A stretch of 62,051 nucleotides of DNA from a virus. Location: the IMG/VR virus record IMGVR_UViG_3300020220_000046, positions 1-62,051 of that record, one strand, 5' to 3'. The translations under genes were made by a program, and so were the position numbers. Positions 1-58,082 of the stretch are shown in pieces (the stretch's first letter is position 1; the number at the start of each line of letters is the position of its first letter). The notes beneath the pieces were generated by a model, which saw nothing but the letters and a program-made list of their open reading frames with translations, was not told the DNA's origin and did not search any database.

Positions 1-1432
1 TACTCCACTTATGATATGTTGCGTTATTACTACTTTCATTTTCATCGGCAATTGTCCCAACATGAACCCATGGGTCTCCACCGTTTGAATCAAATTCAAC
101 ATAAGCTTGGAACGGGGTAGTTCCTGATGTTGGTTGTAACCAGTAATTGCCACTTGTTGTGTAACCCATTTCTTTAAGTAAACGAGCACTTGGTGCTGCT
201 GACGTTGATGAATTACCCAAAACATTACTACCGATAGATGGCGATACATTTGGCATTGAAAATCTTTCTTTGTAGTGTAGATAATTCTTGTGTATTTCTT
301 CAGCATCCAACACTCTATTATAAACTTTAACAACTACAATCTCACCATTATAATGGTATCCACCTGAATTATACGAACCAATAAATTGATTTCCGTTGCC
401 CGTATTCAGGGTATATGATAATCCATCATCAACTTTACATTGTCCATTAACGTAAGTTCTTCTTTGACCTGTTCTAAATGTTCCAACAACATGATTCCAT
501 TGGTTCACCGTCATGTGACTAGTACTACAATATTGACTATTTCCCGCTTGTCGCCAAACAATACTACTACCCTCCATAAACAAACTATATTGACTGTTTA
601 CGGAACCTTTTTCAAACCAAAAACCATTTTGACTAATTGCATACGGTTTAACAACAACTTCTACTGTAACTGTTTGTGTATCAAATAAATTTGATGATGC
701 AACATTTATAAAATCATTTGTTCCATCAAAATAAATTTTTGGTCTTATGTCTGTATTAAATGTAACATTACTTAAATCTAATGAATGAACACCTGTTAAA
801 TCTTTTAATCCTTGTGTTTGACTTCTTGATGAATAAACATATTGTGAAACAGTTGTTGAGTTTAAATCTTCTTTAAATGGTCCCGCCCAATAAATTGTAA
901 TCGGTACATTTAGTGATGCGGTTGCAGGATTAATTGCCCAATACTTTCCATCACTTCTTGTTACAGTATCATACCATAATACATATGCTCTGAACCAACC
1001 ATCCCCCATATCTTCAGGTTGTGTACAACAACTTTGCCATCCACCAATATTTGAATAATGTAAATAAATTGGTGTACTATGCATTGGGACGGTTGGTTTA
1101 AAAAATATCGAATGTCCAGTATATCTATTTGCGATACCTCCACCACCTCCCGTGACAACACCTAAACCTGGATTATTTGCCGCAGTTAACCACGATACAC
1201 CACTACCATCTAATGGGGTTAATACTTGTTTGTAAACGGGGGCACCTCTGTAGTAATCACCATTTAATGTTAAATTAGTAGTTACACTACCCCCAACATT
1301 ATTGTAATTAGACATACTATCACCAAGTAAATTGGTTGTGGGTCTTCCCAAATACGAATTGTATATGTCACCTGTGTCAAAGTGAAATATTAAATCATTT
1401 TTTAATGTTCTCCCATTTAATCTACTAGCCAT
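1..1432 (-). CDS. Tail adhesin with LamG-like and fibrinogen-like domains (partial, runs off left edge)
   Basis: An open frame without stop runs from an ATG at 1432 to the window edge, so the C-terminus is missing. The translation begins MASRLNGRTLKNDLIFHFD, an N-terminal pattern shared with the next adhesin gene. The middle (around residues 230-390) has the features of a concanavalin A/LamG jelly roll: IYFDGTNDFINV, the VNQWNHVVGTF step and the GEIVVVKVYNRVLDAEEI end. The last visible part (SARLLKEMGYTTSGNYWLQP, then YVEFDSNGGDPW) resembles the start of a fibrinogen-related domain. The start overlaps the upstream stop by one base (TAATG), suggesting translational coupling. Probable role: receptor binding at the virion tip. 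The domain reading is by eye; the receptor is unknown. Confidence 0.75.
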   Translation of the reverse strand, partial: MASRLNGRTLKNDLIFHFDTGDIYNSYLGRPTTNLLGDSMSNYNNVGGSVTTNLTLNGDYYRGAPVYKQVLTPLDGSGVSWLTAANNPGLGVVTGGGGGIANRYTGHSIFFKPTVPMHSTPIYLHYSNIGGWQSCCTQPEDMGDGWFRAYVLWYDTVTRSDGKYWAINPATASLNVPITIYWAGPFKEDLNSTTVSQYVYSSRSQTQGLKDLTGVHSLDLSNVTFNTDIRPKIYFDGTNDFINVASSNLFDTQTVTVEVVVKPYAISQNGFWFEKGSVNSQYSLFMEGSSIVWRQAGNSQYCSTSHMTVNQWNHVVGTFRTGQRRTYVNGQCKVDDGLSYTLNTGNGNQFIGSYNSGGYHYNGEIVVVKVYNRVLDAEEIHKNYLHYKERFSMPNVSPSIGSNVLGNSSTSAAPSARLLKEMGYTTSGNYWLQPTSGTTPFQAYVEFDSNGGDPWVHVGTIADENESSNNATYHKWS

Positions 1433-2694
1433 TATAATCCGTATTGTGATTTTGTTCTATTGTAATTATTTTGAATTTCAGTTGCCGTTAATCCTTTTGA
1501 GTATGCTTTAACGCTTCCGATTTTACCAGCAAATAAAGAACCACCCAAACTCCATGTTGCACATCCAATTGCCATGCGACCACCTTGTGGTGTAATTAAA
1601 CCACTTCTGGTTGTTGCATATTCTGTACCATTTAAATAAAATCTATTTGATGTTCCATACCATGTAAATGCAACGTGTGACCATTGATTAGTGGTTGCTG
1701 CAACAATACTATTATAATCTTCTGTACCACTACCGTATGTTACTGTTGACCAGGTCCCACTATTAATTCTAATTGCTCTTGATGCACCATAAACTTGATT
1801 TTCACCAATAGAAAAAACATATCTATCTCCACTTGTGGATGTGGGGTAACACCACGCTTCAATTGTTCCATAAGGTAATTGGTGACCTGTTAAACCGGTG
1901 AATGTCATAAAATCATCACTACCATCTAATTCAAGTTCACCTAAAGTATTAATTTCTAAACCGAAGTTTAAGTGAGCAACCGCAGATGGGTCGGTTGAAT
2001 AGTTTTCATATGCCCATCCGAATGCCTTTCCAACACCAAGTCCCGGTTTTCCAACCAATATCCATTCGGGACGACCCGGTGATGGATTCCATCCTGACAC
2101 ATATGATGGTGCACCTAAATCCATCATCGTATTGACGGTATTGGTATCATATTGGTCAGCAGCGTGTGAACCAATTAAAATAAAGGTACAATTTGGAAAT
2201 CTTCCTCGTATTCTATTATAATCTCTAACCAACCAAACTAAATTATTACCATATCCTGTTTCTGAACCACCATAATTGTCATAAGTATGATTACCATTTG
2301 AGTTTGCACCGTTAAAATATGAATCGGCAACCCATGAATTTGTATCATTGTTCCATACATACATTCCAATACCTCTACCAACACCATATAAGTTGTAATT
2401 ACCTCTTATGTTGTAACCTGTGTGAATACCTTGATACAAAAACCCTAAAGCGTCTGTTCCATAGTTTCCTTCAGGGTATGTTTTTGCACCTGCAGTATAG
2501 TATGTTTTATTTGATAATTTTAATCCGTTAATAAATAAACTTTTAACTTGTGAGATTTGATTTGTAACACCATCAGTACTACCATTATATCCACCACAAC
2601 CAATAGGACTTACACCCGTTGGTATATTGTGAGTATCGATGACAAAATACGCATCGTTTAATCCTGATAATATGGTTCCCGAACGTGATGCCAT
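1432..2694 (-). CDS. Tail adhesin with C-terminal LamG-like domain
   Basis: 420 residues starting MASRSGTILSGLNDAYFVID. The C-terminal part (about 250-420) reads as a concanavalin A-like/LamG domain: LELDGSDDFMTF, TIEAWCYP, the NQWSHVAFTWYG step, FYLNGTEY, and a final KIGSVKAYSKGLTATEIQNN. The central part (about 85-240) contains RGIGMYVWNNDTNSW, a long loop, FILIGSHAADQYDTNTVN and WILVGKPGLGVGKA. This recalls ILEI/PANDER-type domains found in some phage tail proteins, but that match is tentative. It lies between two other adhesin-like genes and probably belongs to the same tail-tip cassette. Confidence 0.72.
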   Translation of the reverse strand: MASRSGTILSGLNDAYFVIDTHNIPTGVSPIGCGGYNGSTDGVTNQISQVKSLFINGLKLSNKTYYTAGAKTYPEGNYGTDALGFLYQGIHTGYNIRGNYNLYGVGRGIGMYVWNNDTNSWVADSYFNGANSNGNHTYDNYGGSETGYGNNLVWLVRDYNRIRGRFPNCTFILIGSHAADQYDTNTVNTMMDLGAPSYVSGWNPSPGRPEWILVGKPGLGVGKAFGWAYENYSTDPSAVAHLNFGLEINTLGELELDGSDDFMTFTGLTGHQLPYGTIEAWCYPTSTSGDRYVFSIGENQVYGASRAIRINSGTWSTVTYGSGTEDYNSIVAATTNQWSHVAFTWYGTSNRFYLNGTEYATTRSGLITPQGGRMAIGCATWSLGGSLFAGKIGSVKAYSKGLTATEIQNNYNRTKSQYGL

Positions 2695-3646: not shown

Positions 3647-4345
3647 TTAGGGTTGTTTCAATGGATTGATTTTGTCTCTAATTAAATGAAATAACTCTTC
3701 GTCTTTTTGAATGTCGGTTTCTGATAGTTTGGATGATACCATAATACTGATACCCTCACCCGCACCACCGACGGTTTTCCCCAATTCGAGGTCAGAGAAA
3801 TCCTTACATAGTTGTAATTTCTCGTAGTGTTCAAAGAATCTATTATAATTGAACCCTATTTTATTAAAAATCAATAGGTGTTCCCATATTGTTTCGTGTT
3901 CGCCATATGATGGGTACATCTTCTCAACATATCTTTTATATGAGTTCCATTCCCCGTGGTCCAAAACCACGTTCTTTATCCATTCTTTTCCCCCGTATTG
4001 ACGTTTTAATGTCTCAAGGTATGTGATTCCATATTTGAACTGATATGTCCTTAAATCCCTTAAAAATGACCAATCATTAATTTCGATGTCAGCATCTAAT
4101 ATAATAGAAATATCGTGATATTTCATCATGTACTTCACCAAAATGAGTTTATCGTGATAGGATTTGAGTGACCTCAAATAAGGTATAATTTTTACAAAAT
4201 TGCTTGAGTAAATTTTTTCAAAATATTCGGTATTGTCGGTTAGAATATAGGGCGCAAAACCTTCATTGAGAATCCTGTTCACTTTCTGTGTTGTATTCTC
4301 AAAATATTCTTTATCTCCAAAACATAGTATTCCAATTCCAATCAT
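3647..4345 (-). CDS. Glycosyltransferase-like protein (GT-A fold)
   Basis: 232 residues. The start, MIGIGILCFGDKEYFENTT, and the later SIILDADIEIN (Asp-Ala-Asp at 84-86) fit a GT-A glycosyltransferase: a nucleotide-sugar binding start and a DxD metal site preceded by a hydrophobic strand. A conserved-looking loop, TVGGAGEGISIMVSS, follows near residue 190. There is no signal peptide, so it acts in the cytoplasm. It sits inside the tail-fibre cassette, so it could glycosylate tail fibres or the Thr-rich virion proteins encoded at 31-41 kb, or modify the host surface. The substrate is not inferable. Fold call moderate. Confidence 0.6.
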   Translation of the reverse strand: MIGIGILCFGDKEYFENTTQKVNRILNEGFAPYILTDNTEYFEKIYSSNFVKIIPYLRSLKSYHDKLILVKYMMKYHDISIILDADIEINDWSFLRDLRTYQFKYGITYLETLKRQYGGKEWIKNVVLDHGEWNSYKRYVEKMYPSYGEHETIWEHLLIFNKIGFNYNRFFEHYEKLQLCKDFSDLELGKTVGGAGEGISIMVSSKLSETDIQKDEELFHLIRDKINPLKQP

Positions 4346-5449: not shown

Positions 5450-7396
5450 TTAGTAAGTTCCTCCGTCAATAACCGTGGAGAACACTAATCCACCATTGGA
5501 ATTTTTATAACCTAAAATTCCATCAAGAACGTCTGTTGTCTCGGTTGTAGATACATAACCTAAAACATTAGAACTATTTTTAAATACTATTGCAGATGTC
5601 TTTGAGTTAGCGTCAGCTCCTCCAGCAGAACTTAATGTTACATTACCAGCAATTAAAGTTGCACCATTCGAAGATGCTACTGTAAATTTATTGGTATTGT
5701 ATGCTAAAGTTGTTGCATCATCGTACAATAAACTATCTCCGATGTTGTTTGCGCCTGTTGCTTTAGTTATTCTATTTAATATTAAACTAGCTTCAGAACC
5801 ATGAGTTCCCGCAGTTGTACCAACCAACTTACTTGATTGTAAACTTGATGAAACGAACATCCAGTAGTCGTTCTGAGAATCCCATACAAGTGACGCGGAT
5901 ATTCCTGATGAACCTGAATCGATTACCTCAAAACCGGCATATCTTTCAAATGGTGAATATGCGTTTAATCTTATAATATTATCATCCAATTCAATAACGG
6001 ATGAGGATATATGAACTTCAGTCGCACCTCCAAGTAAACTTAAATTACCCGTAACTGTTAAGTCACCACCAATCGATGTTCCACCTGTAATTGTTAAAGT
6101 ACCACCTGTAATATTCGTTGAAATTAAATTCGTTGTTGTTGCACTTGTTGAGGTGAATGATGAACCAGCGCCTAATGCTACGGTTGATGGTAAACTTACT
6201 GTCCAAGTTCTATCACCTGTCAAGTTTTGTGCTCCACCTGTAACTGTAACTTGGTTTGTAGTTCCTGTAACGGTTAAACTTCTGTCGGCTCTAACAGTTT
6301 GAGTGGTACCTGTTGCTTGTGTTCCTAATATAACTTGATTAAATGTGGTTGTTGCGCTTGTTCTAATATCTTGGGCTAAGTCATATTGTAAAGTATTGGT
6401 ATTATCATTAAATGTTGTGGTTAAACCTTTAGCAGCAACACCTGCGAACGTGATTGTTTCAGTTTTAAGCGCAACACTACCGAGATTGGTGGAAGAACCA
6501 TCGGAGGCGGTTACAAATAATGTAGATACGATACCTGTCAACTGAGAACCATCACCTATAAACGAACCTGTAAATGTTGATGCGGATACTGCACCTGTTA
6601 AATTAGCTGAACCCTGAACATTTAATGAACCGGTTATTGTTACAACATCACCACTATTATCACCGAGATTTGTGTTACCTGTTACAGTTAGATTGTTTGT
6701 TGTTATACCACTTGCAACATATAGATTTCTCCATTGTTTGGATGATGAACCAAGGTCGAATGCATTGTTTACGTCAGGAATGATAGAAGAAGAAACTTCG
6801 GCGCCAAAAGTAATATAGTCGGTATTTGCATCACCCACGGTGATGTTACCACCTAAAGTGATATTACCGTCGATTACCGCATTGCCTGTTAATTTTAAAT
6901 TTGAACCGGTAATATTTCCTGTAACTTGAGAATCACCACCCACGGTAAGATTATTGGTTACCCCTACAAAGGAACCAGTTAAAGACGTTGTAAAGTTACC
7001 GGTACCTCCCGTAATATTTGTTACGTTGGCATTTGTACCTGTTAAACTTGTAATTGTAACATTGGCAATGGTATTACCTTCAATGTTACCCGTTAAATCT
7101 ATTTTTCTATTACCTCCAGCCGCTAAAACATACAACGCTTCGTCTGTTGTTGAGTAGAATGGCGTACCATCAACTGTGGTTCCGAATGAACCAGCAGCAA
7201 TTGTTGGTACGGTTGAACCCTCATAAATTTTAGAAATGGGATTATATCCACCCGCAATTTCGTCCGCGCCAATGAATACCCACGGGCCGTTCATTGTACC
7301 GATTGAGCCGGTGGCGACCACCACTTCACCAGACCTAGCAGTTACGTTTTTGAGTTGTGTGATACTACCCCTTCTGTGCTTAATTATTTGTGCCAT
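5450..7396 (-). CDS. Long tail fibre protein
   Basis: 648 residues, rich in Thr, Ser, Gly and Asn. The start, MAQIIKHRRGSITQLKNVT, is the usual fibre attachment motif. Residues about 95-330 are beta-helix-like repeats built around GNITGSNLKLTGN, TGNTNLGD and ITGSLNVQGSANLTG. A conserved fibre motif (ELDDNIIRLNA, then SLVWDSQNDYWMF) lies near residues 485-535 and is repeated in the next gene upstream. The end, LDGILGYKNSNGGLVFSTV, is a compact tip. Likely a trimeric fibre shaft. A terminator lies just downstream. Confidence 0.75.
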   Translation of the reverse strand: MAQIIKHRRGSITQLKNVTARSGEVVVATGSIGTMNGPWVFIGADEIAGGYNPISKIYEGSTVPTIAAGSFGTTVDGTPFYSTTDEALYVLAAGGNRKIDLTGNIEGNTIANVTITSLTGTNANVTNITGGTGNFTTSLTGSFVGVTNNLTVGGDSQVTGNITGSNLKLTGNAVIDGNITLGGNITVGDANTDYITFGAEVSSSIIPDVNNAFDLGSSSKQWRNLYVASGITTNNLTVTGNTNLGDNSGDVVTITGSLNVQGSANLTGAVSASTFTGSFIGDGSQLTGIVSTLFVTASDGSSTNLGSVALKTETITFAGVAAKGLTTTFNDNTNTLQYDLAQDIRTSATTTFNQVILGTQATGTTQTVRADRSLTVTGTTNQVTVTGGAQNLTGDRTWTVSLPSTVALGAGSSFTSTSATTTNLISTNITGGTLTITGGTSIGGDLTVTGNLSLLGGATEVHISSSVIELDDNIIRLNAYSPFERYAGFEVIDSGSSGISASLVWDSQNDYWMFVSSSLQSSKLVGTTAGTHGSEASLILNRITKATGANNIGDSLLYDDATTLAYNTNKFTVASSNGATLIAGNVTLSSAGGADANSKTSAIVFKNSSNVLGYVSTTETTDVLDGILGYKNSNGGLVFSTVIDGGTY

Positions 7397-7443
7397 GTTT
7401 GTTTATAATTTTTCTTCTTTTATATAAATACTTAATTTTTCCT

Positions 7444-8130
7444 TTAAAAGAACCCTCCGAGGTCGATTTCTGTCATTGCAGTTGGGCTGGAAAAAGTACC
7501 CAATCCTTGAATATTTAAGGAGGCGGAAATAATTTGAGCTCCGATTAAGTTTTCAACTACTTTCATTGCTCCCGATACAATTAATGATTCTGATGCTGGG
7601 TTATTCTTTTGAACCAAGGTTGTTATTCCCTCAACAATAAGGTCACCTTTAATTGTTGTCGCACCACTCATGGTAATCATAGAACCATCGTCAATGATTC
7701 TTGAATCTTCTAATGTAGTACCATTACCATTTAATTTTTGAAGGTGGTTTGTGGTTCCGGACATACTAACTAAAGTAATGGTTTGCTCGGAACCTAAGGG
7801 ACCGGCAATCCATCTATCATTAATTGAATCCCATAAAAGACTACCTGACACAAGGGTCGGAGCTGTTGGGTCTTTCACCAATAAGCCACCGAAAGCATTT
7901 GCTGTCCCGTTTAATTCGATAATATTATCGCCAAGGCTAATTGTATTTGATTCAATTATGGTTGTTGTACCATGAACAGTAAGATTACCCCCGATGTCTA
8001 AAGAACCGGAAATATCCATATCCTTTACGTAAATTCCATCTAGGGGGAAAGGGTCACTACCCAAAACCACCGTTGTACCCGAAGGTGGTACGGTATTTAT
8101 TTGGGTCCAATTAATCTGCTGTAATGCCAT
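7444..8130 (-). CDS. Tail fibre protein, paralogue of the long fibre's distal part
   Basis: 228 residues. The central block (SLGDNIIELNGTANAFGG, then SLLWDSINDRWIAG) parallels ELDDNIIRLNA...SLVWDSQNDYWMF in the adjacent 648-residue fibre, so the two share a duplicated module. The flanks are fibre-like (SGSLDIGGNLTVHGTTT; SGATTIKGDLIVEGITT). The end, MTEIDLGGFF, is short and has no obvious tip domain, so it may be a proximal or connector fibre. The leader has a 7-bp inverted repeat abutting the ATG and an ATAAATAT element 21 bases upstream. Confidence 0.68.
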   Translation of the reverse strand: MALQQINWTQINTVPPSGTTVVLGSDPFPLDGIYVKDMDISGSLDIGGNLTVHGTTTIIESNTISLGDNIIELNGTANAFGGLLVKDPTAPTLVSGSLLWDSINDRWIAGPLGSEQTITLVSMSGTTNHLQKLNGNGTTLEDSRIIDDGSMITMSGATTIKGDLIVEGITTLVQKNNPASESLIVSGAMKVVENLIGAQIISASLNIQGLGTFSSPTAMTEIDLGGFF

Positions 8131-8150
8131 GTAAAAGTAAAGTCTTTTAC
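8131..8150 (-). promoter_or_regulatory. Hairpin abutting the fibre start codon
   Basis: GTAAAAG (8131-8137) and CTTTTAC (8144-8150) form a 7-bp stem with a 6-base loop ending directly at the ATG (8128-8130). On the mRNA it would leave the start codon at the stem base. Similar arrangements are seen at 13101, 13598 and 20964. Confidence 0.4.
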
Positions 8151-8193
8151 ATAAATATTTTATAATCGTTTATGCGCATAAAAAAAGAAGATT

Positions 8194-11342: not shown

Positions 11343-11977
11343 GGAGTGGTAAGTATTTTATAGTATTATTTTGTAATAATAAAAAGTTAAAGGTTTTATA
11401 TCGTTGTCAAACAATCAAAACACTATATGAACATTGGAGAGAATACAAAACACAAAGACAGCCGAGGTTTATGAAAATACAAGGGGGTAAAAGAAACAAA
11501 GAACTTGTGTTTGAATTAGCCCTTATTTTTCCAAATAATAGATGGTCGAAGAAAACCTTTGTAAAAGATGGTTTAGGTAGAAACATTGAAGCTCAAATGG
11601 AGGATGATAAGTTTCGTATAAAAGAACTCATCCCGTATTGGAAAGAAGAATACATATACAATTTTCAAATAAAGGACCGCGTCAGATATCACAATATGAT
11701 GGATGAGATTTTGAAAATAAGAGATGTGGCACAGGTTTTCACATTGAACAATAAACTATTTGTTCAAAATGAAAATGACATATGGTTGTATGGAAACAAA
11801 AACCTAAAAGACGCTGAAAGGTTGTTTAATTTAGTAAGAGAAGATTTACTAAACAAAAAGAAGAACAACTTTATTTTTGTTAGAGACGTAACAACCGCAC
11901 AAAGAAAATCACTATATACCCTGCTTGAATCTAAAGGGTTTAAGAGGTCTGAGCTTTTTCGGCATTACTCTTATTAA
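11339..11977 (+). CDS. Unknown basic protein, second gene of plus-strand pair
   Basis: 212 residues, Lys/Arg-rich, coupled to the preceding membrane peptide by a 4-base overlap. Visible stretches are YFIVLFCNNKKLKVLYRC, a central WKEEYIYNFQIKDRVRYHN, and a C-terminal VRDVTTAQRKSLYTLLESKG. No family is recognised. The basic character is compatible with nucleic-acid binding, which is speculative. Its 3' end overlaps the 3' end of the minus-strand gene at 11940-12191 by 38 bases, a convergent overlap. Confidence 0.65.
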   Translation: MRSGKYFIVLFCNNKKLKVLYRCQTIKTLYEHWREYKTQRQPRFMKIQGGKRNKELVFELALIFPNNRWSKKTFVKDGLGRNIEAQMEDDKFRIKELIPYWKEEYIYNFQIKDRVRYHNMMDEILKIRDVAQVFTLNNKLFVQNENDIWLYGNKNLKDAERLFNLVREDLLNKKKNNFIFVRDVTTAQRKSLYTLLESKGFKRSELFRHYSY

Positions 11978-12191
11978 AAACAATATCAACAAATCCAATA
12001 CGAACGGTAAATGAATTACCGGGTTTTGTTGACCTCCTATTTTGTTTTTTATTAATGTAGTCGAATGTATTAAGAAATTCTTTTTCGGATAACTCAAGAA
12101 CAATGGCGGCGCTTTCAGATTCAATATTCATTTTTTCAACTAAGTCACTTATAATAGCCAACTGATTTAATAAATCACCCTTTTTTTCCAT
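11940..12191 (-). CDS. Unknown small helical protein
   Basis: 83 residues from ATG at 12191 (an upstream TTG at 12197 is less likely). MEKKGDLLNQLAIISDLVEKMN begins a helix; the middle has SAAIVLELSEKEFLNTFDYI and the end GNSFTVRIGFVDIVFNKSN. The start overlaps the upstream small ORF by 17 bases. The 3' end converges with, and overlaps, the plus-strand gene. No family recognised. Confidence 0.55.
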   Translation of the reverse strand: MEKKGDLLNQLAIISDLVEKMNIESESAAIVLELSEKEFLNTFDYINKKQNRRSTKPGNSFTVRIGFVDIVFNKSNAEKAQTS

Positions 12192-12387
12192 AACCAAATA
12201 TTATTAGTATCCTATTAAATATACCTATCTTTTTCTTTTCAGGTGCTTTGAACATCTCATCTTTGTTCCAAGATTTGATTTCCTCAATCATCTTCCTCTT
12301 GTGATTCTGTATCTCCGATTGGTCCTTCTCCGTTTCCTTCTTCAACCAATTTAATTCCTTTTGTATCTTCTTGTTGTTCTTTGACAT
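12175..12387 (-). CDS. Small coiled-coil protein overlapping its neighbour out of frame
   Basis: 70 residues from ATG at 12387. A charged helical N-terminus (MSKNNKKIQKELNWLKKETE) is followed by KAPEKKKIGIFNRILIIFGY, a short amphipathic or hydrophobic end. The first 104 bases lie inside the 3' end of the gene at 12284-12745 in another frame, an unusually long same-strand overlap. Both frames look protein-like, so either this is dual coding or this start is wrong. Function unknown. Confidence 0.42.
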   Translation of the reverse strand: MSKNNKKIQKELNWLKKETEKDQSEIQNHKRKMIEEIKSWNKDEMFKAPEKKKIGIFNRILIIFGYGKKG

Positions 12388-12745
12388 TTTCAATAAATGA
12401 TAAGTCTCTTAATTTATCCAAGGATTGATGTTGAAATAAAATATGAAGTTCTTTAATTTTTGCTTGTAATAATCTATCCTTTTCTTCCAATTCTTTATTT
12501 GTGTCAATTATTTCTTTTGCACATGCAAATGCGGTTTCATAACCATTCGATGTCGATTGAGTTATAATTGAAACCAATGTAAATTTTTCGTTCTTGTCCT
12601 GTACTTTATATTTGATTGACTTATATGGCGCCATGATATGTTCAAACTTCCATGTCATTGGTAGTTTGATGTCCAAACTAACATTGTTATCAATCTCTCT
12701 AAGAGAAAAAAAGTAAGGTCTAAGATATTTTACTAATTCAAACAC
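12284..12745 (-). CDS. Unknown protein with helical middle and acidic tail
   Basis: 153 residues from a GTG start at 12745. The first half looks like a beta domain (NNVSLDIKLPMTWKFEHIM; FTLVSIITQSTSNGYETAF). Residues about 85-120 form a helix with coiled-coil character (ELEEKDRLLQAKIKELHIL). The end is highly acidic (GDTESQEEDD). It lies just downstream of a small membrane protein gene. No family recognised. Confidence 0.6.
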   Translation of the reverse strand: MFELVKYLRPYFFSLREIDNNVSLDIKLPMTWKFEHIMAPYKSIKYKVQDKNEKFTLVSIITQSTSNGYETAFACAKEIIDTNKELEEKDRLLQAKIKELHILFQHQSLDKLRDLSFIENVKEQQEDTKGIKLVEEGNGEGPIGDTESQEEDD

Positions 12746-12749
12746 GTTA

Positions 12750-12929
12750 TTATAGTATAATAAAGGTGATTATGTATGAAACGGCAAGGTATAGAAACAC
12801 TTCCTCGGTCTTTCCAGCTTTCATTGGTGCTGGTTCTTCCTGAAATAGTTTTAAAGAAAATTCAATTATGAACCTCAAACAAAAAACTATACTCAAGACA
12901 AAGAGTAAAAGTTTAATTTGTTCAATCAT
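12750..12929 (-). CDS. Small two-helix membrane protein
   Basis: 59 residues from ATG at 12929. Two hydrophobic segments are visible: IKLLLFVLSIVFCLRFII near the N-terminus and VFLYLAVSYIITFIIL at the C-terminus, joined by a charged linker with EEPAPMKAGKTEE. The start overlaps the histone-like gene's stop by eight bases (ATGATTGA), implying coupling. It resembles a holin-sized hairpin membrane protein, but nothing identifies it as one. Confidence 0.55.
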   Translation of the reverse strand: MIEQIKLLLFVLSIVFCLRFIIEFSLKLFQEEPAPMKAGKTEEVFLYLAVSYIITFIIL

Positions 12930-13101
12930 AATGTTTAATTTCTTCTAAAATTTCTTTTCTATACTGAGCAATTAATATTTTTATTTCTTGAGCGTATTTT
13001 CGAGCACGAATCGATGCGCTTCGGTTTCCCTTTTCATATACTTTAGCGGTGTCGACAGACATTTTCTCCACTAACTCTTTTATTTTCTTTAGTGTTTCCA
13101 T
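12922..13101 (-). CDS. Histone H1-like (Hc1-type) small nucleoid protein
   Basis: 59 residues from ATG at 13101. METLKKIKELVEKMSVDTAK, then YEKGNRSASIRARKYAQEI and ending in a Lys-rich helix, follow the layout of the short histone-H1-like proteins of Bacteroidota: a helical start, the core (F/Y)-x-KGN-x-(A/S)-(A/G)-x-R-x-RK and a helical end. Those proteins are DNA-binding and basic. In a phage it could compact DNA, modulate the host nucleoid or help packaging. An inverted repeat fills the space before its ATG, and it is coupled to a membrane protein downstream. The assignment rests on motif recognition. Confidence 0.68.
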   Translation of the reverse strand: METLKKIKELVEKMSVDTAKVYEKGNRSASIRARKYAQEIKILIAQYRKEILEEIKHYD

Positions 13102-13138
13102 ATTTTTTCCGTTTTTATTACCAATATACGGAAAAAAT
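13102..13138 (-). promoter_or_regulatory. Inverted repeat abutting the histone-like gene start
   Basis: ATTTTTTCCGT (13102-13112) and ACGGAAAAAAT (13128-13138) are perfect complements with a 15-base loop. They occupy nearly all of the gap between the stop at 13140 and the ATG at 13099-13101. No T-run follows the stem on the minus strand, so a translational role is more likely than termination. Confidence 0.45.
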
Positions 13139-13139
13139 T

Positions 13140-13598
13140 CTATTTTTTCAAGTTTTGTTCCAACAATTTGTAAACTTCCGTGAGCATATCAAGTTCAGAC
13201 CTTGATTTTCTGTGCCTAAAGTCGAATAACTTAAAGAAATATTCCCCTATCCTTGTGGTTTTTTTATCCATTTTTGTTTCATAATATGCCTCATAAAAGA
13301 AATTCCACATGTACTCATAGTGAGTACCCCTTTCTTTAAAGTGTATCTTTTCCTTTGTAAAATTATCGAGTAGTTTACTCCAACACCAATTGAAGTGGTT
13401 TCGTTGGTCCGATTCGTTATATAAAACGTCGATACCCAAAAACGTTGCGTCTACTAAATCATGTAATGAGCTTAAGAAATCGTAAAATAGTTCAATCTTT
13501 TCACGATGAATATTGTATGCTCTATACCAAACGTCGATTTGATGTCTGTACTTTTCGGTGGTTTCGTACTCAATATAATAATCCTCTCTCTTTTCCAT
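13140..13598 (-). CDS. Unknown aromatic-rich helical protein
   Basis: 152 residues, starting MEKREDYYIEYETTEKYRHQ and unusually rich in Tyr, Phe, Trp and His (WYRAYNIHREKIELFYDFLS; YMWNFFYEAYYETK). It looks all-helical and soluble. No catalytic motif is seen. An inverted repeat (TTCCTTA/TAAGGAA at 13601-13625) ends two bases before its ATG. It lies next to the histone-like gene and downstream of probable structural genes. Function unknown. Confidence 0.6.
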   Translation of the reverse strand: MEKREDYYIEYETTEKYRHQIDVWYRAYNIHREKIELFYDFLSSLHDLVDATFLGIDVLYNESDQRNHFNWCWSKLLDNFTKEKIHFKERGTHYEYMWNFFYEAYYETKMDKKTTRIGEYFFKLFDFRHRKSRSELDMLTEVYKLLEQNLKK

Positions 13599-13600
13599 GG

Positions 13601-13625
13601 TTCCTTAATACATAATAATAAGGAA
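13601..13625 (-). promoter_or_regulatory. Inverted repeat next to a start codon
   Basis: TTCCTTA (13601-13607) and TAAGGAA (13619-13625) form a 7-bp stem with an 11-base loop, two bases from the ATG at 13596-13598. It is one of four such start-adjacent hairpins in the window. Confidence 0.38.
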
Positions 13626-13647
13626 AGAAAAGAATAAAAATAAGAAT

Positions 13648-14841
13648 TTACTGAGTTCTTTCGTCGTATCCCAAAATATTCTTCATTCTTTTGATTTCTT
13701 CTTCAAAAATTGAAAACATTTTAGGTTTTTCAGATTCTTTAACCACACTAACCTTTGCTGGTACTTTCCAACGATGGCCCCAACTTACCTCAGGTTCTTT
13801 AGCTATTTTCTTAGCCTTTCTTTCTATCTTTTTACCTATTTTCTTTCCTAAATCACTTTTTATAACGTTTGCCGCGTCTTGTGAGTTACCCATTGTTGTG
13901 TCACCTTCTAATGCTTTCTTTAATCTTGCTTTAAATCTTTTAGATGGTTCATAACCATAATTGAGGTCTTCCAATCCTTCACCTCTAAAATCATCTATAG
14001 TTTCATTCTCATCTTCAGTTGTTCTATCAGCTACGGTATCACCCTTTACAATGGCTTTTGGAAATTTTGGATTGTCGTTACCATCAAAAGATGAGATACC
14101 CTTTAATTTTTTCTCAACATCTGCCATGTGAGATTTTGAATCACTACCTGAAATTTTTTGAGCTTTTTTAGTTACCACTAAACCCGGTACTGACTCATTT
14201 ACTATTTTAGAAATCAAAGAAACTAACTCACTTTCTGTAAGTCTTAAAGTTGTTTTTTTAGATTCTTCCATTTTACGCGCACCACATTCGTTACAATTAC
14301 CCTCTTCATTCATAATACCGCCACATTCATTACAAAAACCATGACCTTCTTTAACATCTTCTTTTTTAGTTTTATCTTTCTTTTCTGCCCCTCCACACTC
14401 TTCACATTGAGATTCCATTTCCTCAAGTTGCTTCCATGCTTCGTCAACATTAATGGTTTCGGTTCCAATTTTAAATTCTTTGAGACCTTTCTCTTTAGCA
14501 TCAAGAACTGCTTGAGCTACGTTTTTTACTTTTATTGATTTTTTTTCCATGGTTTTTGTTTCGTTTACTTCTAATTTTTCTCCTAATTCTTCCAATTTAT
14601 CTATCATTTCAGAATAGGAGTTATATGATGCTTTTTCAATTATAAATTCTTTTTCAGGATGCTCTTTCTTATAAATATCTAAATGTTTGTGTGCTTCATC
14701 TTCAGAATAACAAGTCTGAACAGGTTCACCTTCACAGGTTATATGAAATACCTTTTTACCATCCTCTTTTTCTTCAAGAATAGCTCTTCTAACCTCGTTT
14801 AATAACGACTCATTTATAATATTATTCAAATTATTTTCCAT
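13648..14841 (-). CDS. Zinc-ribbon-containing protein, probable virion or core component
   Basis: 397 residues, strongly charged. N-terminal helix MENNLNNIINESLLNEVRRA. Cysteine pairs CEECGG (about 148), CNECGG (about 173) and CNECGA (about 186) form one or two zinc ribbons between charged linkers. After residue 195 come LTESELVSLISKIVNES, Lys-rich segments (GKKIGKKIERKAKK) and a helical end FSIFEEEIKRMKNILGYDE. The LTESE...ISKIV and (E)EIKRMKNIL(G) phrases recur in marine phage structural or core proteins as I recall them. The gene abuts the ParB-like gene and is followed by an intergenic inverted repeat. Function not established. Confidence 0.55.
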   Translation of the reverse strand: MENNLNNIINESLLNEVRRAILEEKEDGKKVFHITCEGEPVQTCYSEDEAHKHLDIYKKEHPEKEFIIEKASYNSYSEMIDKLEELGEKLEVNETKTMEKKSIKVKNVAQAVLDAKEKGLKEFKIGTETINVDEAWKQLEEMESQCEECGGAEKKDKTKKEDVKEGHGFCNECGGIMNEEGNCNECGARKMEESKKTTLRLTESELVSLISKIVNESVPGLVVTKKAQKISGSDSKSHMADVEKKLKGISSFDGNDNPKFPKAIVKGDTVADRTTEDENETIDDFRGEGLEDLNYGYEPSKRFKARLKKALEGDTTMGNSQDAANVIKSDLGKKIGKKIERKAKKIAKEPEVSWGHRWKVPAKVSVVKESEKPKMFSIFEEEIKRMKNILGYDERTQ

Positions 14842-14842
14842 C

Positions 14843-15763
14843 TTATTGTATAAATATCTTATTTATCTCATTTAATACAATTTTCTCTATTTCAGAATAT
14901 GGAATTCCGTATTTTTTAGATGCCAATCGTATTGATTCTTTTAGTCCATCTACCTCTAATAATTCAATGGCGTTTATGTCACCCTGATTACAATATGGAA
15001 ACCTCTTACACTTTTCTTTTATTTTGATAAACTTACCCTCAGGTCCACCCCACTTAGGGAACTTCTTATCCTTTACCGCCCTACTACTCTTTATACTTTC
15101 GGGACCCCCAATACTCAATGGGTTCTTGCGGTTTTTAGATGGGAATGGAACATCATAATAACCTGATGCATCTGCGGTTACCGCTTCCTCTATATCCTCT
15201 TCCTCTTTAAGATTATGAATCTTATTAATCTTTTTTTTAATGATTGGAGCTCCGAGTGCGGGTGCGAATGCACCGGCAGCGTCTGCTCCCGTAGCTTCTG
15301 TTGTATCTTTCTTTTTTCCTTGACAATGTGCCCTTTGGCTAAAACCTTTTGGATTTGAACAATCGATTGAATCTTTGTATTTTTCACTCCACTTTTCATT
15401 CATCTCAACTTTCTGTGTCATATCAACAACCCATAATTTTGGGTTAATTCCTTTATTTATCAATCCCGCCAATCTTGTATTCCCACCTAGTAAATTATAA
15501 TTATTTTCACTAAACTTGACCACTATTGGTATTTCAATTTCACCCTTCTCAAATGAATCTTCAAATCTCTTTTTCTTGTCATCCTCTAATGTATTGTAAT
15601 CTAAATCGACATTATATAATACATCTTCTATTTTTTCAAAATTCGTGATATCGTAATTTTTATTTGCAACATTTAACCACCCCTCTTTACCCATTTTTTC
15701 AAACACACGGTAACGTAGGGCTTCCATCCATTCATTATCAAAATTAGGTTTAACGTATTTCAT
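14843..15763 (-). CDS. ParB-like domain protein with cysteine motif, probable virion-associated
   Basis: 306 residues. Residues about 75-115 (EIPIVVKFSENNYNLLGGNT, then RLAGLINKG) match the ParB/sulfiredoxin-like core: a strand followed by GG(N/H)TR. Then comes DCSNPKGFSQRAHCQGKKK, a short cysteine motif seen in several large-phage proteins, an Ala/Gly linker and VTADASGYYDVPFPSKN. The final part, KCKRFPYCNQGDINAIEL, with closely spaced Cys, also recurs in marine phage virion proteins as I recall. It lies between small structural candidates. A nuclease or nucleotide-hydrolysing role for the ParB-like part is possible but unproven. Confidence 0.58.
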   Translation of the reverse strand: MKYVKPNFDNEWMEALRYRVFEKMGKEGWLNVANKNYDITNFEKIEDVLYNVDLDYNTLEDDKKKRFEDSFEKGEIEIPIVVKFSENNYNLLGGNTRLAGLINKGINPKLWVVDMTQKVEMNEKWSEKYKDSIDCSNPKGFSQRAHCQGKKKDTTEATGADAAGAFAPALGAPIIKKKINKIHNLKEEEDIEEAVTADASGYYDVPFPSKNRKNPLSIGGPESIKSSRAVKDKKFPKWGGPEGKFIKIKEKCKRFPYCNQGDINAIELLEVDGLKESIRLASKKYGIPYSEIEKIVLNEINKIFIQ

Positions 15764-16002
15764 TACTTAACTGTTTTCAACGCACCTTCCCAAAATGACT
15801 TTCTCTGCCACAGGGTTTTGAATAGTTCAACAACAACCTTTGTAGATAGGTCCACTATTTTATCATCTATATTTTTTGTACCTAACTCCTTTTGAATTAT
15901 CTTAACAACAATATTATGGGCTTGGGTCGTCTCAAGAAAGTCTTTCATCTCCTTCCTTGATATTTTTTCAATCTCTTTAATATCTGCGTTAGTCAAAGCC
16001 AT
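15763..16002 (-). CDS. Small helical protein in structural cluster
   Basis: 79 residues, starting MALTNADIKEIEKISRKEMK and ending LFKTLWQRKSFWEGALKTV. It is all-helical with a Trp-rich C-terminal segment (LWQRKSFWEG). Short proteins with this MALT(N)-x-(D)-I-K start and a W..R..W end accompany structural genes in other large marine phages, from memory. It overlaps the next gene's start by one base. Function unknown. Confidence 0.55.
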   Translation of the reverse strand: MALTNADIKEIEKISRKEMKDFLETTQAHNIVVKIIQKELGTKNIDDKIVDLSTKVVVELFKTLWQRKSFWEGALKTVK

Positions 16003-16003
16003 G

Positions 16004-16567
16004 TTATGATATTCTTCTATTTCTTAGAATTGGTTCCATTGCTGAAGCGAATGTTGGTTTAAATTTTAGTAACTTATCAAACATCAGCAACGTATCATCT
16101 TCGACTTTTAACATATCTGAATTAACGTACAAACCACTATCTTCGCCAGCAATAATGACAAAATTTATGTCTAAATCGGTAATAGAACCATCGAGTCTGA
16201 TTTCAGATTCGTCTATGGTGATACCGGGGTTTAAATCGGCTAATTGAGATACTTGTTGTCTAAAAGAATCGATGAGTTGGCTTATTGAACTCTTCTCATC
16301 ATCTTTTAATTTCACATCCTCTTGGTCAGTTGAAATTAATTTTATCTCAACGTCATTAACAACCTCAACATTATCAAATTTATCTTCTGAGGATTGTGGT
16401 GATGGTACGTCGTCACCGGGTTCAATAGGCTGTGGCCGCGGTTGTTGTGGTTCTGCTTCCTCTATTAAAAGAGAACTTAATTTTGTTATTTTAGACGCAT
16501 TTATGGTTCTCATTGTATTGAGCATCCCTTTTATCTGGTCATAAGCTGTTTGTTTCTTTGTATTCAT
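16004..16567 (-). CDS. Acidic protein in structural cluster, possibly core or scaffold
   Basis: 187 residues. A helical N-terminus (MNTKKQTAYDQIKGMLNTMR) is followed by a Pro/Gln-rich linker (EPQQPRPQPIEPGDDVPSPQ), a very acidic middle and a compact C-terminal domain (ITDLDINFVIIAGEDSGLYV; LLMFDKLLKFKPTFASAM). Its acidity and position between virion-like genes would suit a scaffold or core protein, but no homology is recognised. Its 5' end overlaps the 3' end of the amidase-fold gene by 29 bases. Confidence 0.5.
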   Translation of the reverse strand: MNTKKQTAYDQIKGMLNTMRTINASKITKLSSLLIEEAEPQQPRPQPIEPGDDVPSPQSSEDKFDNVEVVNDVEIKLISTDQEDVKLKDDEKSSISQLIDSFRQQVSQLADLNPGITIDESEIRLDGSITDLDINFVIIAGEDSGLYVNSDMLKVEDDTLLMFDKLLKFKPTFASAMEPILRNRRIS

Positions 16568-31172: not shown

Positions 31173-31201
31173 ACTTTATTATAAATATTTTATTCCACAT
31201 T

Positions 31202-51761: not shown

Positions 51762-54197
51762 TTAGGAACCACAACCTTCACATTCAAATGGTGAGTCTGT
51801 TGGTTTTGGTGTGTTTAGCATTTCAGTCATCTTAACCTCTTCAGATGTATCCTGAATAAAATTATTAGTAGTTGGTACTTCGACAGACTCAACCACCGGT
51901 TTTACTGTTGATGTATCGATTCCAAGTCCTTTTAGTGGGTCAACAGCCGCTCTTGTTCTTAGGTAGTACATACCAGTTTTTAAACCAAGTTTCCAACCAT
52001 AAAGGTGTGCGGCTAATACTTTTTGTTTACTAGCATTATCGATAAATAAATTTAATGATTGTGATTGGTCAATATAGATTGAACGATTGGCAGCCATAGA
52101 TAAAATCTTCTTCTGAGACATTTCCCAAACAGTCTTAAATACCTCTTTGATATCCGTTGGGATTTCAGGGATATTTTGAACTGAACCATTTTCCATGATT
52201 AGTTTATTTTTAATGTCGTCCGACCATATGTTTCTTTCAAGTAATGCTTTAACCAAGTGCTTGTTGACCACGATAAACTCACCACCAAGTGTTCTTCTTG
52301 AGAATATGTTTGAAGTAAATGGTTCAAACGATTCGTTATTACCTAAGATTTGTGCGGTAGACGCTGTTGGCATCGGTGCAACCAATAAGGAATTTCTAAC
52401 ACCGAATTTAACAACCTCTTTTCTCAGAGATTTCCAATCCCAACGACCACTTGTGTCTTTATCGGTTTTACACCACAATTGATATTGAAAAATACCTTCA
52501 GATAATGGTGAGCCCAGAAAACTTTCATATGCCCCATTTTCTTTTGCAATGTCTTTTGATGAAACAAGTGCTGCGAAGTAGATAGTTTCAAAAATTTCAG
52601 TTTGTAGTTTGTCGGCGCCCTCACTTTCAAATGGAATTGATAACATACAAAATACATCTGCTAATCCCTGTACACCTAAACCAACGGGTCGGTGTCTCAT
52701 ATTTGAAAGTTTTGTTTCTTCAGTTGGGTAGAAGTTTAAATCAATTACATTGTTTAAATTCTTTACCAATTGGTACACGTATCCATATAAAAGTTGATGA
52801 CTGAATTCGCCATCAACAATATATTTTGGTAATGCAATTGACGCTAAATTACAAACAGCCTGTTCTGTTGGACTTGAGTACTCAATAATCTCAGTACATA
52901 AATTTGAAGATTTGATTGTGCCTAAATTCTTTTGATTTGATTTGTAATTTGCGTGGTCCTTATATAACATATAAGGTGTTCCTGTTTCAATTTGTGCAGT
53001 CAAGATTGCATCTATTAGTTTTCTTGCTTTTACAACCTTTCTCGCTCTTCCTTCTTTCTCATATCTTTCATACAATTCGGTAAATTCTTGAGTGAATGAA
53101 AATGGGTCATCGTATTTGTCAGATAAACCCGGTGCTTCATCAGGTGAGAATAACGACCAATCACCATCTTCTTCGACTCTTTTCATTAACAAACTTGGGG
53201 TCCACATTGCTAAGAATAAATCTCTTGCACGTAGTTCTTCTTTACCATGGTTTTTTCTTAAATCGATAAATTCAAAAACATCTGAGTGCCATGGTTCAAG
53301 ATAAATCGCGAAAGAACCTTTTCTTTTACCACCTTGATTAATCCAACGAGCAACTTCATTGTACGTTTTCATCATTGGAAGTAGTCCGTCTGATTCACCA
53401 CCTGTTCCTTTAATATATGAACCCTTAGCTCTAACGTCATGAACATGTAGTCCGATACCGCCAGCCCACTTTGAAATTTTAGCAACGTCTTTAATTGTGT
53501 CAAACAAACCATCAATGTCATCGCCTTTATTACCAATTAAGAAACAAGAAGACATTTGTGGTCTACAAGTACCGGCATTAAACAATGTCGGAGTTGCGTG
53601 AGTGTAGAAATGTTGTGATAAATCATCATAAACTCTCAAAGCCATTTCTAAATCTCCATTACAAATACCAACGGCAACCCTCATATACATATATTGAGGT
53701 CTTTCAACAATTCTTTTACCAATCTTCAAAAGATATGAATGTTCCAAAGTTTTAAATCCAAAATAATCAAAATCCAAATCACGTTCTTGTCTAATTGCTC
53801 CGTCTAATGCTTCTCTATTTTGAATTACAAATTGATATACCTCGTCAGAAATCAATGAGGACTCTTTACCTGTTTTAGATTCAATGAATGAGTGTAACTC
53901 TTTTATACATTGTGAAAACTTCTTAGGGGTTGTCTTGTGTAGATTAGATACCGCAAGTCTACCAGATAATTTAGCATAATCGGGATGTGTGGTAACAAGA
54001 GACGCTGCGGTCTCGGCAGCAAGAATATCTAATTCTACTGTCGATATACCGTCGTAAATTCCTTGAGTTACTTTTAATGTAACAAGTGTTGGGTCAACAT
54101 ATTCTATATTCAAATCATCACAGAAATATTGCATTCTTTTTGTGATTTTATCATATCTCATCTCCTCAAAGGAGCCGTCTCTTTTTTTAACTTTCAT
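51762..54197 (-). CDS. nrdA: Ribonucleotide reductase class Ia, large subunit
   Basis: 811 residues. An N-terminal ATP-cone (MKVKKRDGSFEEMRYDKITK). Catalytic segments in order: MSSCFLIGNKGDD (active-site Cys), NLCTEIIEYSSPTEQAVCNL (radical-transfer and active-site Cys), MPTASTAQILGNNESFEPFT and SQSLNLFI. The end CEGCGS carries the shuttle cysteines reduced by thioredoxin or glutaredoxin, both encoded at 8.2-8.8 kb. Makes dNTPs for phage DNA. Upstream of nrdB and the replication block; a terminator follows. Confidence 0.93.
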   Translation of the reverse strand: MKVKKRDGSFEEMRYDKITKRMQYFCDDLNIEYVDPTLVTLKVTQGIYDGISTVELDILAAETAASLVTTHPDYAKLSGRLAVSNLHKTTPKKFSQCIKELHSFIESKTGKESSLISDEVYQFVIQNREALDGAIRQERDLDFDYFGFKTLEHSYLLKIGKRIVERPQYMYMRVAVGICNGDLEMALRVYDDLSQHFYTHATPTLFNAGTCRPQMSSCFLIGNKGDDIDGLFDTIKDVAKISKWAGGIGLHVHDVRAKGSYIKGTGGESDGLLPMMKTYNEVARWINQGGKRKGSFAIYLEPWHSDVFEFIDLRKNHGKEELRARDLFLAMWTPSLLMKRVEEDGDWSLFSPDEAPGLSDKYDDPFSFTQEFTELYERYEKEGRARKVVKARKLIDAILTAQIETGTPYMLYKDHANYKSNQKNLGTIKSSNLCTEIIEYSSPTEQAVCNLASIALPKYIVDGEFSHQLLYGYVYQLVKNLNNVIDLNFYPTEETKLSNMRHRPVGLGVQGLADVFCMLSIPFESEGADKLQTEIFETIYFAALVSSKDIAKENGAYESFLGSPLSEGIFQYQLWCKTDKDTSGRWDWKSLRKEVVKFGVRNSLLVAPMPTASTAQILGNNESFEPFTSNIFSRRTLGGEFIVVNKHLVKALLERNIWSDDIKNKLIMENGSVQNIPEIPTDIKEVFKTVWEMSQKKILSMAANRSIYIDQSQSLNLFIDNASKQKVLAAHLYGWKLGLKTGMYYLRTRAAVDPLKGLGIDTSTVKPVVESVEVPTTNNFIQDTSEEVKMTEMLNTPKPTDSPFECEGCGS

Positions 54198-54209
54198 TTT
54201 TAAAAATAA

Positions 54210-55184
54210 TTAAAAATAAATGTCATCAATGTTTGTTATGTCTTCAATAGACGATGTTGTTGCCACACCCGCTTTTTGATATTCGGCAACTCTTTTTTCA
54301 AAGAAATTTGTTTTACCTTGAATTGCAATATTCTCCATAAAATCAAATGGGTTATTTGAATTACATACTTTAGGTACACCCAAAGACATTAACAATCTGT
54401 CGGTAACGAACTCCAAATACTGAGACATCAAATCTGAATTCATACCAATTAAACGAACCGGTAGTGCCTCAAGAATAAACTCTTTTTCAATCTCTAATGC
54501 GCTACAAATGATTTCTTTTATTTTAGTCTGTGTAAGTTTCTTTTGAATATGATTGTTATACAAATGACAAGCAAAGTCACAATGCATTCCCTCGTCACGA
54601 GAAATCAGCTCATTTGAGAACGTTAATCCTGGCATTAAACCACGTTTTTTGAGCCAAAAAATAGAACAAAATGAGCCAGAAAAGAAAATACCCTCAACTG
54701 CAGCAAACGCGACAAGTCGTTCAACGAATGAGTCAGCGTTAATCCACTTGATTGCCCATTCTGCTTTTTTCTTGATAGCGGGTACAGTTTCAATCGCATT
54801 AAATAAACGATTCTGTTCTTCTTTATCTTTAATATATGTATCAATCAAAAGTGAATAGGTTTCACTATGAATGTTTTCCATCATGATTTGGAAACCATAA
54901 AACATTTTAGCTTCTGTGAATTGAACTTCGTTAATAAAATTCATCGCCAGGTTTTCATTTACGATACCATCCGATGCCGCAAAAAACGCCAAAACGTGTT
55001 TAATGAAATGATGTTCATCATCATTTAATTTGTTTCCCCAGTCATTGATGTCTTGTGCTAAATCAATTTCCTCGGCCGTCCAAAAACACGCTTCTTGTTG
55101 TTTATAAAGCTTCCATATATCGTGGTGTTCGATTGGAAAGAGGACAAAACGGCCAGGATTTTCTTGTAAAATCTTTTCTTTCAT
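54210..55184 (-). CDS. nrdB: Ribonucleotide reductase class Ia, small (radical) subunit
   Basis: 324 residues. Di-iron ligands: [15 protein letters not shown] (Asp/Glu), [13 protein letters not shown] (Glu, His and the radical Tyr in the E-x-x-H-x-x-x-Y arrangement), [10 protein letters not shown] (Glu) and [11 protein letters not shown] (Glu, His). The C-terminal DDIYF tail fits large-subunit binding. It generates the tyrosyl radical for NrdA. One gene upstream of nrdA, 12-base gap. Confidence 0.93.
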
Positions 55185-55201
55185 TTATTAAATTTATAGG
55201 A

Positions 55202-56575
55202 CTACCGATTAAGTAACTCTTGTCGTCTCTTAAATGCGTCAGCCGCCCTTTTGGTATTTGTTTTTACTTTTTCTTCTTGGTGACCGAGAAGTGTTGTTTG
55301 ACTTTCAGTATCAATTTTTAGATATTTGTTATCAAACTTGCAGTTGTTCCAAATAATACCATCTTGACCAATACGTGATTTAAGAAGTGTCATTGTTGCC
55401 AGGTTGTGTTCTTTTTGTTCAAGTGTTTTACCAACGGATAATACAACGTGACCAATCTGTGCCTTTTTGATTGACCCACCCATTTGGTCGGCAGTAACTA
55501 CTTCAGATGAGATTGATTCTCTATTTCCTTGAGTTGCTGTCCATATTGCAATATCAAATTCATGGGTCATAGCCTCAATACTTCTCATAACAGAACCCTC
55601 ACTTTTCCATTCTTCACCGAAAATACATCTTTCAGGTGAAATACAATCCACGTAATCGATTACCAAAAGGTCTAACTTTTTACCATCAGACAAGTGTTTT
55701 CTTATTCTTGATTTAATTTCAGAAATGGTGACAGAGTCACTTGGTAACTTCATTGTACTAAGTGAACCCGTATTTACTTCTTTAATTTCCTCAATAATTT
55801 TCTTAACCTCATCTTTTCTTTCGGATTGTGCATCTGACTCAATTCCTGTCCAAATGGTAAAGTGTTTTCTTTTGATATTTGATGGATTGTCCTCGAAGAA
55901 TATTTGAAGTACGTTAAAATTATGATTGTATGCTGTGTTTGAGAATAATGTTAATAATGTTGTCTTACCTGTTCCGGTAGGTGCTAATACAACCCCAAGT
56001 TCACCTCTACCTAAACCACCTTTAAGAACATTATCAACTCCTGTAATTCCTGTTGGAATTGCTTGTCTATTATCTTTTTCTAAAGTGGCATCAATATCAT
56101 GAAATACGTCCATTGATTCTTCAGGAGGAAGTCCTACCTGCATCGCCTTCTGAATAATAGTTTCAATCTTTGGGTAGTCTTGGAATGCTCCGTTTTCGAT
56201 GATGGTATTGATTTTCTTTAATTCCTTCTTTAGGTTCTGTTGTTTACAGAAATTCAACGCTTCGTCCTTAACAATAGAATTATCTTGTGTATTTGTTTTG
56301 ATGGATTCAAGTGTATCTAAGTGAATTTTTGCATTCTCTCGAGACCCCATCTCTGCAATAATTTTAATTGCCAAACTCTGATAGTCTGGTAATTTGCTGT
56401 GCGTCTTATAATATTCTTTAATGCACTCTGAAATGAATTTGAACGATACGTTGTCGAAATATTTACTTTCGATTACATCGATAATTTGTTCTCCATATTT
56501 TTTATCCTCTATAATTGACCTTAATAATGCTTGTTGAAATGACGTTCCTAACGTACCAAAATTCTTTTCATTCAT
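55202..56575 (-). CDS. 41: Replicative DNA helicase, DnaB/gp41-like
   Basis: 457 residues. RecA-type ATPase: Walker A APTGTGKTTLLTLFSN (198-206 core), KLDLLVIDYVDCISPE (Walker B) and WTATQGNRESISSE (motif with Gln). The N-terminal helical domain (SFQQALLRSIIEDKKYGEQI) matches the DnaB-type primase-binding region. The tail (TLLGHQEEKVKT) is short. It unwinds DNA at the fork; works with the primase at 27.2 kb. It lies between the RNR genes and the duplicated-domain protein gene. Confidence 0.88.
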   Translation of the reverse strand: MNEKNFGTLGTSFQQALLRSIIEDKKYGEQIIDVIESKYFDNVSFKFISECIKEYYKTHSKLPDYQSLAIKIIAEMGSRENAKIHLDTLESIKTNTQDNSIVKDEALNFCKQQNLKKELKKINTIIENGAFQDYPKIETIIQKAMQVGLPPEESMDVFHDIDATLEKDNRQAIPTGITGVDNVLKGGLGRGELGVVLAPTGTGKTTLLTLFSNTAYNHNFNVLQIFFEDNPSNIKRKHFTIWTGIESDAQSERKDEVKKIIEEIKEVNTGSLSTMKLPSDSVTISEIKSRIRKHLSDGKKLDLLVIDYVDCISPERCIFGEEWKSEGSVMRSIEAMTHEFDIAIWTATQGNRESISSEVVTADQMGGSIKKAQIGHVVLSVGKTLEQKEHNLATMTLLKSRIGQDGIIWNNCKFDNKYLKIDTESQTTLLGHQEEKVKTNTKRAADAFKRRQELLNR

Positions 56576-56595
56576 TGTATATATATATTATTTTT

Positions 56596-58051: not shown

Positions 58052-58082
58052 TTCGTCTTATGTAATTTTCCGTTAAACAATA

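Follow-up and report, generated by a model that had tools for sequence, protein, structure and literature searches.

A short Hc1-domain protein of a large virus of predicted Bacteroidota bacteria: domain boundary, candidate promoter and possible DNA-architectural role

What does a large phage do with a histone H1-like protein, and how much does that name say about its function? The question is raised by one small gene in the virus record IMGVR_UViG_3300020220_000046, positions 1 to 62,051 (the window, meaning the whole stretch of 62,051 nucleotides analysed). This 62-kb record comes from a large virus of predicted Bacteroidota bacteria and carries a T4-like gene set: a sigma factor, a head maturation protease, an SbcC-like (gp46-type) protein, a baseplate wedge protein, ribonucleotide reductase, a DnaB-like helicase, and UvsX-like proteins. 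At 2-2694 (minus strand), the window also encodes a pair of neighbouring proteins with Laminin_G_3 (concanavalin A-like) domains, probably tail or capsid decoration or adhesion proteins; a related 310-kb contig contains a long run of genes resembling this pair. A scan of IMG/VR returned 96 relatives, the best 80 of which were kept for locus comparison. The locus counts in the following list of genes refer to the best 80 of 96.

12922..13101, minus strand: Hc1-domain (PF07432) protein gene, 59 aa, ATG to TGA
12750..12929, minus strand: 59-aa protein with two hydrophobic segments, 79/80 loci
12284..12745, minus strand: conserved operon gene, 153 aa, GTG start, 80/80 loci, mean identity 58%
12175..12393, minus strand: conserved operon gene, 72 aa, TTG start, 80/80 loci
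11940..12197, minus strand: final gene of the putative Hc1 operon, 85 aa, TTG start, 80/80 loci
13140..13598, minus strand: upstream co-directional gene, 152 aa, 80/80 loci, mean identity 64%

The sequence-only reading had proposed a 59-residue ORF at 12922-13101, and this ORF is indeed present on the minus strand, running from ATG to TGA. Its product, METLKKIKELVEKMSVDTAKVYEKGNRSASIRARKYAQEIKILIAQYRKEILEEIKHYD, has a mass of 7.0 kDa, a net charge of +4, and a pI of 9.4. The check suggested with that reading, a profile search for the Hc1 family, gave a match to Pfam PF07432 (E=2.8e-16, 59.6 bits) well over the curated cutoff of 23.5 bits, aligning residues 1-54 to positions 1-54 of the 57-position model. 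Against the NCBIfam equivalog for chlamydial HctA/Hc1 (NF051889), the protein scored 21.6 bits, below the equivalog cutoff of 100; residues 2-52 aligned to positions 5-54 of 121, that is, to the N-terminal part only. The protein ends in ...EEIKHYD and has no Lys-rich C-terminal tail, and most relatives are likewise 59-64 aa long. At the level of sequence, the N-terminal dimerisation domain of Hc1 is thus the sole part matched; the protein does not have the Lys-rich tail with which chlamydial Hc1 binds DNA. The label "H1-like of Bacteroidota type" holds as far as the PF07432 match and the length and architecture of Bacteroidota copies go; it implies less than it seems to, because only the N-terminal half of Hc1 is there, and the name alone predicts no DNA compaction. 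A PHROGs search returned no matching Hc1 family (best E=0.019 over 20 residues).

The gene was intact and syntenic in 80/80 viral loci (best 80 of 96), with 75-90% identity. Its mean identity to the window, 82%, is the top of its block, the other members of which range from 37 to 77% (best 80 of 96). The block runs in the order endolysin-like, 187-aa, 79-aa, 306-aa, 397-aa, 152-aa, Hc1, 59-aa membrane protein, 153-aa, 72-aa, and 85-aa genes, followed by opposing genes, a methyltransferase, a 95-aa gene, and an AAA ATPase; some loci are without a few members, owing to contig ends or missing genes. The 306-aa protein (14843-15763, minus strand) has a ParB-like N-terminal look by eye (GGNTRLAGL) and no PHROGs match. 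Among 104 usable pairs of Hc1 genes, the median dN/dS was 0.10, indicating purifying selection, and ten related contigs, 199-311 kb in size, have exactly one copy apiece. A chance ORF is ruled out by the PF07432 match, the 80/80 syntenic loci (best 80 of 96), and the dN/dS of about 0.10.

AlphaFold2 predicts a helical hairpin with a mean pLDDT of 97.2, in which helices 2-24 and 27-58 flank a turn at KGN; the core (KGNRSASIRARK) and the helical flanks described from the sequence are thus both present. Residues G25, A29, R32, R34, and R48 are invariant among 41 diverse phage Hc1 sequences, and K20 is nearly so. The pI is basic in all groups of Hc1 proteins (group medians 9.2-9.6). Searching a structure library with the predicted hairpin returned generic hairpins only, none at E<=0.001, and a sequence search found no solved relatives (best E=0.25).

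The reading we favour, and to which we give about an even chance of being correct, is a small, probably dimeric DNA-architectural protein made in early to mid infection from a sigma-A-type promoter. In this scheme, a phage-lineage member of the short (tail-less) Hc1/PF07432 family would make a small helical hairpin that, by analogy with the N-domain of chlamydial Hc1, would dimerise or oligomerise and would associate with DNA through the invariant R32, R34, and R48 and the nearly invariant K20. The gene would be transcribed early to mid infection from a host sigma-A-type promoter, heading a small operon with the membrane protein, and the product would organise DNA, with the phage genome a more probable target than the host nucleoid or both. 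The PF07432 match, the Bacteroidota-like core, the invariant arginines, and the basic pI count for this reading, as do the 80/80 synteny (best 80 of 96), the dN/dS, and the host-type promoter described below. Counting against it are the missing Lys-rich tail, the net charge of only +4, and the lack of a structure match at E<=0.001.

The missing tail and the generic nature of the hairpin fold would also suit a role away from DNA, in which the hairpin acts as an adaptor whose partner is a protein, possibly the membrane protein coupled to it. The start of the gene for that membrane protein overlaps the Hc1 stop by 8 nt (ATGATTGA), making translational coupling likely. It adjoins Hc1 in 79/80 loci (best 80 of 96), and the coupled small membrane protein of the sequence-only reading, with its two hydrophobic stretches, is borne out. 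However, the arginines are conserved and the pI is basic in every lineage, and in other phage lineages the neighbours differ, so that the membrane protein is no general partner; we consider the adaptor role very unlikely. Neither this 59-aa protein (12750-12929) nor the 153-aa protein (12284-12745) had a Pfam or PHROGs match. The last gene of the putative operon, the 85-aa gene at 11940..12197, ends abutting convergent genes.

The timing of expression bears on what the protein could do. The sequence elements considered upstream of the Hc1 start are the following.

13123..13128, minus strand: candidate -7 element TATATT (TATATTGG), compare Bacteroidota sigma-A TAnnTTTG
13149..13151, minus strand: candidate -33 element TTG, 20 nt upstream of the -7 element
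13102..13138, minus strand: inverted repeat beside the Hc1 start codon, 11-bp stem, 15-nt loop
14849..14856, minus strand: TATTTATA, candidate late-promoter motif of the phage, preceding the 397-aa gene that lies upstream of Hc1

TTG is the -33 box of Bacteroidota sigma-A promoters. The -7 box of Flavobacterium sigma-A has the consensus TAnnTTTG (PMC9723704). The element TA[TC]A[TC]T, which is similar to this box, is found 23-32 nt before the Hc1 ATG in 49/49 distinct upstreams, and the complete pattern TTG-N17-21-TA[TC]A[TC]T in 44/48. The same pattern occurs 0-6 times before each of the other block genes, except for an opposite-strand 50-aa gene (24/38). The -33 TTG falls within coding sequence, at the 3' end of the gene upstream, and may thus owe some of its conservation to the protein encoded there. 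At Hc1 loci with a different upstream context, the -7-like element is kept, and TTG or TTTG is kept in several.

The surrounding genes carry another motif. The window has 11 copies of TATTTATA on the minus (coding) strand and none on the plus strand, and 10 of the 11 lie within 60 nt upstream of a start. Every distinct upstream of the 397-aa, 187-aa, and 228-aa genes has TATTTAT (43/43, 41/41, and 13/13, respectively), whereas just 3/48 of those of Hc1 do. TATTTAT(A) is strand-specific, with copies such as those at 14849-14856, 8150-8157, and 31180-31187 (minus) placed shortly before virion-type genes; it does not occur directly ahead of the genes for replication and nucleotide metabolism at 51762-59114. 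In the related 310-kb contig, TATTTAT was found in 64/357 upstreams against 9.9 expected, and TTG-N-TAyAyT in 29 upstreams against 2.9 expected. The portal and terminase (TerL) genes of this contig carry TATTTAT, and the host-type pattern precedes members of a cluster of small genes as well as Hc1 and the sigma factor of the phage.

From these distributions we infer that TATTTAT is a phage late promoter and that Hc1 would be expressed before the late genes from the host-type, sigma-A-like candidate promoter. With a sigma-A-like promoter at Hc1 and TATTTAT at the surrounding late genes, early or middle expression is likelier than late expression. Hc1 may also be transcribed by read-through from the upstream late genes.

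In the related 310-kb contig, a K-rich motif of the type [ILV]TE[SN] stands at the N-terminus of five proteins, each encoded by a gene that carries TATTTAT. The genes with this motif are on the minus strand (L306: 9980-11110; L307: 10859-12178, 12666, 13554-14498, and 15251-16303). The association between the two motifs has a Fisher p=0.0025, with two further non-N-terminal matches counted. The N-terminal motif is possibly a virion-targeting signal.

The earlier reading had also noted a hairpin adjacent to the start. It is real in the window (-13.7 kcal/mol, z=-3.84); however, the last 50 nt before Hc1 in the relatives have a median MFE of -3.1 kcal/mol (49 distinct upstreams), and the hairpin is weak or absent in most, so it is not a conserved part of the feature. 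The inverted repeat is probably incidental. As a conserved regulatory element it is ruled out by these 49 upstreams, and as an intrinsic terminator by the absence of a T-run after the hairpin.

If Hc1 were instead a virion or packaging protein, it would be made late and packaged with the genome or placed on the tail or baseplate, where it would condense head DNA or aid ejection. Such a role has been proposed for moraphages (PMC12619734). The window offers some support, because Hc1 directly follows two co-directional genes, the farther of which carries the late motif. More comes from other lineages. In a T4-like marine group (53 loci, L162-L216), Hc1 is flanked in most loci by a gp5-like gene on one side and gp25 on the other, with each neighbour present in 44; the gp5-like neighbour has a Gp5_OB match just below Pfam's cutoff. 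From the gene order, Hc1 looks to be part of a baseplate operon in this group, which would fit a virion role and counts against the DNA-architectural reading. In a cyanophage-like lineage, Hc1 is found near a phage-tail-lysozyme gene. However, TATTTAT is absent from 45/48 Hc1 upstreams, which have the host-type promoter instead, and Hc1 heads an operon made up of a membrane protein and unknowns rather than recognised virion genes. The suggestion of a packaging role through co-expression with late genes is therefore weakened, a verdict that the T4-like baseplate operon qualifies, and we regard a virion role as unlikely.

Host copies of Hc1 came from a family search across the phylum, in which 118 Bacteroidota genomes were sampled; this search was used because a second genome scan covered Sphingobacteriaceae only. 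PF07432 was found in 68/118 genomes and was absent from the other 50; at about 58 aa, the copies are similar in length to the phage protein. In a tree of 99 rows, the phage Hc1 clade to which the window belongs is monophyletic (100/98), has a long stem, contains no host sequence, and is separate from all 39 sampled host copies; the tree has only 60 columns, and its deeper placement is uncertain. A genome scan with phage-clade patterns found no encoded relative. Because the phage copies make up a single clade that is old and has a long stem, recent host capture is disfavoured, as it is by the genome scan.

These results also weigh on the idea of a decoy, in which the dimerisation half would pair with the host's own Hc1 in a dominant-negative manner and disturb the host nucleoid. 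The presence of the N-terminal domain alone, the frequency of Hc1 in the host phylum (68/118 genomes), and a host-type promoter suited to early takeover are compatible with it. However, the host copies are just as short, and the phage protein is therefore not a truncated form of theirs; the sampled hosts are distant from the phage clade; 50/118 of the sampled Bacteroidota genomes have no Hc1; and a cyanophage carries the domain as well. We judge the decoy to be improbable. The proposed takeover or mimicry of the host nucleoid fares no better where recent mimicry is concerned, given the long-stemmed phage clade apart from the 39 host copies.

The Hc1 domain is encoded by further phages: all 15 Lak records, LR756500, LR756502, LR745206, cyanophage S-SRM01, where the gene is annotated as histone H1, and two marine single-cell virus contigs. 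Hundreds of IMG/VR contigs carry Hc1-domain proteins, and representative Lak, S-SRM01, jumbo, and T4-like sequences score above the PF07432 cutoff. In S-SRM01 (L083), the Hc1 gene is at 3941-4129, and a gene for a Dps-type DNA starvation/stationary phase protection protein (7187-7621) lies about 3 kb downstream. A more general proposal, which we offer tentatively and think doubtful as it stands, is that tail-less Hc1 hairpins form a widespread, largely unrecognised family of phage chromatin proteins acting on the intracellular phage genome, expressed here before the late genes from a host-type promoter. If DNA binding is true, several unrelated lineages of large phages have kept a chromatin-like protein, which would bear on the organisation and protection of very large phage genomes inside the cell and would open an experimental route to the short Hc1 proteins of Bacteroidota. 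The half of Hc1 to which the H1-like name refers is absent here, and compaction should not be assumed.

Compared with known systems, the closest published case is that of the moraphages: Perez-Hernandez et al. 2025 (PMC12619734) reported PF07432 in four complete genomes of these aquatic jumbo phages with predicted Bacteroidota hosts and suggested a genome-packaging role for the histone H1-like protein. The Pfam family, the aquatic jumbo phages, and the predicted Bacteroidota hosts are shared, so a phage Hc1 in predicted Bacteroidota viruses is not new in kind. The likeness consists of size class, predicted host type, PF07432, and, in the related contig, TerL, portal, DNA polymerase, and sigma factor. 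The main text of that paper likens the protein to linker histone and contains no analysis of promoters, synteny, domain boundary, or gene tree; the present analysis adds the extent of the domain, the promoter classes, a gene tree, and a broader distribution among phages. Eukaryotic linker histone H1 has a winged-helix globular domain and a Lys-rich tail, whereas the phage protein is predicted to be a two-helix hairpin and has no tail. Chlamydial Hc1 dimerises through its conserved N-terminus and binds DNA through its Lys-rich C-terminus (PMC2848022); the phage protein has the N-terminal domain in common with Hc1/HctA (residues 5-54 of the 121-position model) and is without the Lys-rich, nucleic-acid-binding C-terminal half. 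The Hc1 proteins of Lak phages, the huge phages LR756500, LR756502, and LR745206, S-SRM01, and the marine T4-like phages are all phage-encoded and have the same domain, but they are found in other genomic contexts and at separate positions in the tree. For the short Bacteroidota Hc1 proteins, the literature searched held no relevant study of function. The phage protein matches them in length, in the KGN-x-(A/S)-A-x-x-R-x-R core, in its basic pI, and in having no tail; it differs in belonging to a distinct clade with a long stem, and in having KGNRSASIRARK where the host proteins have KGNKAAGTRARK.
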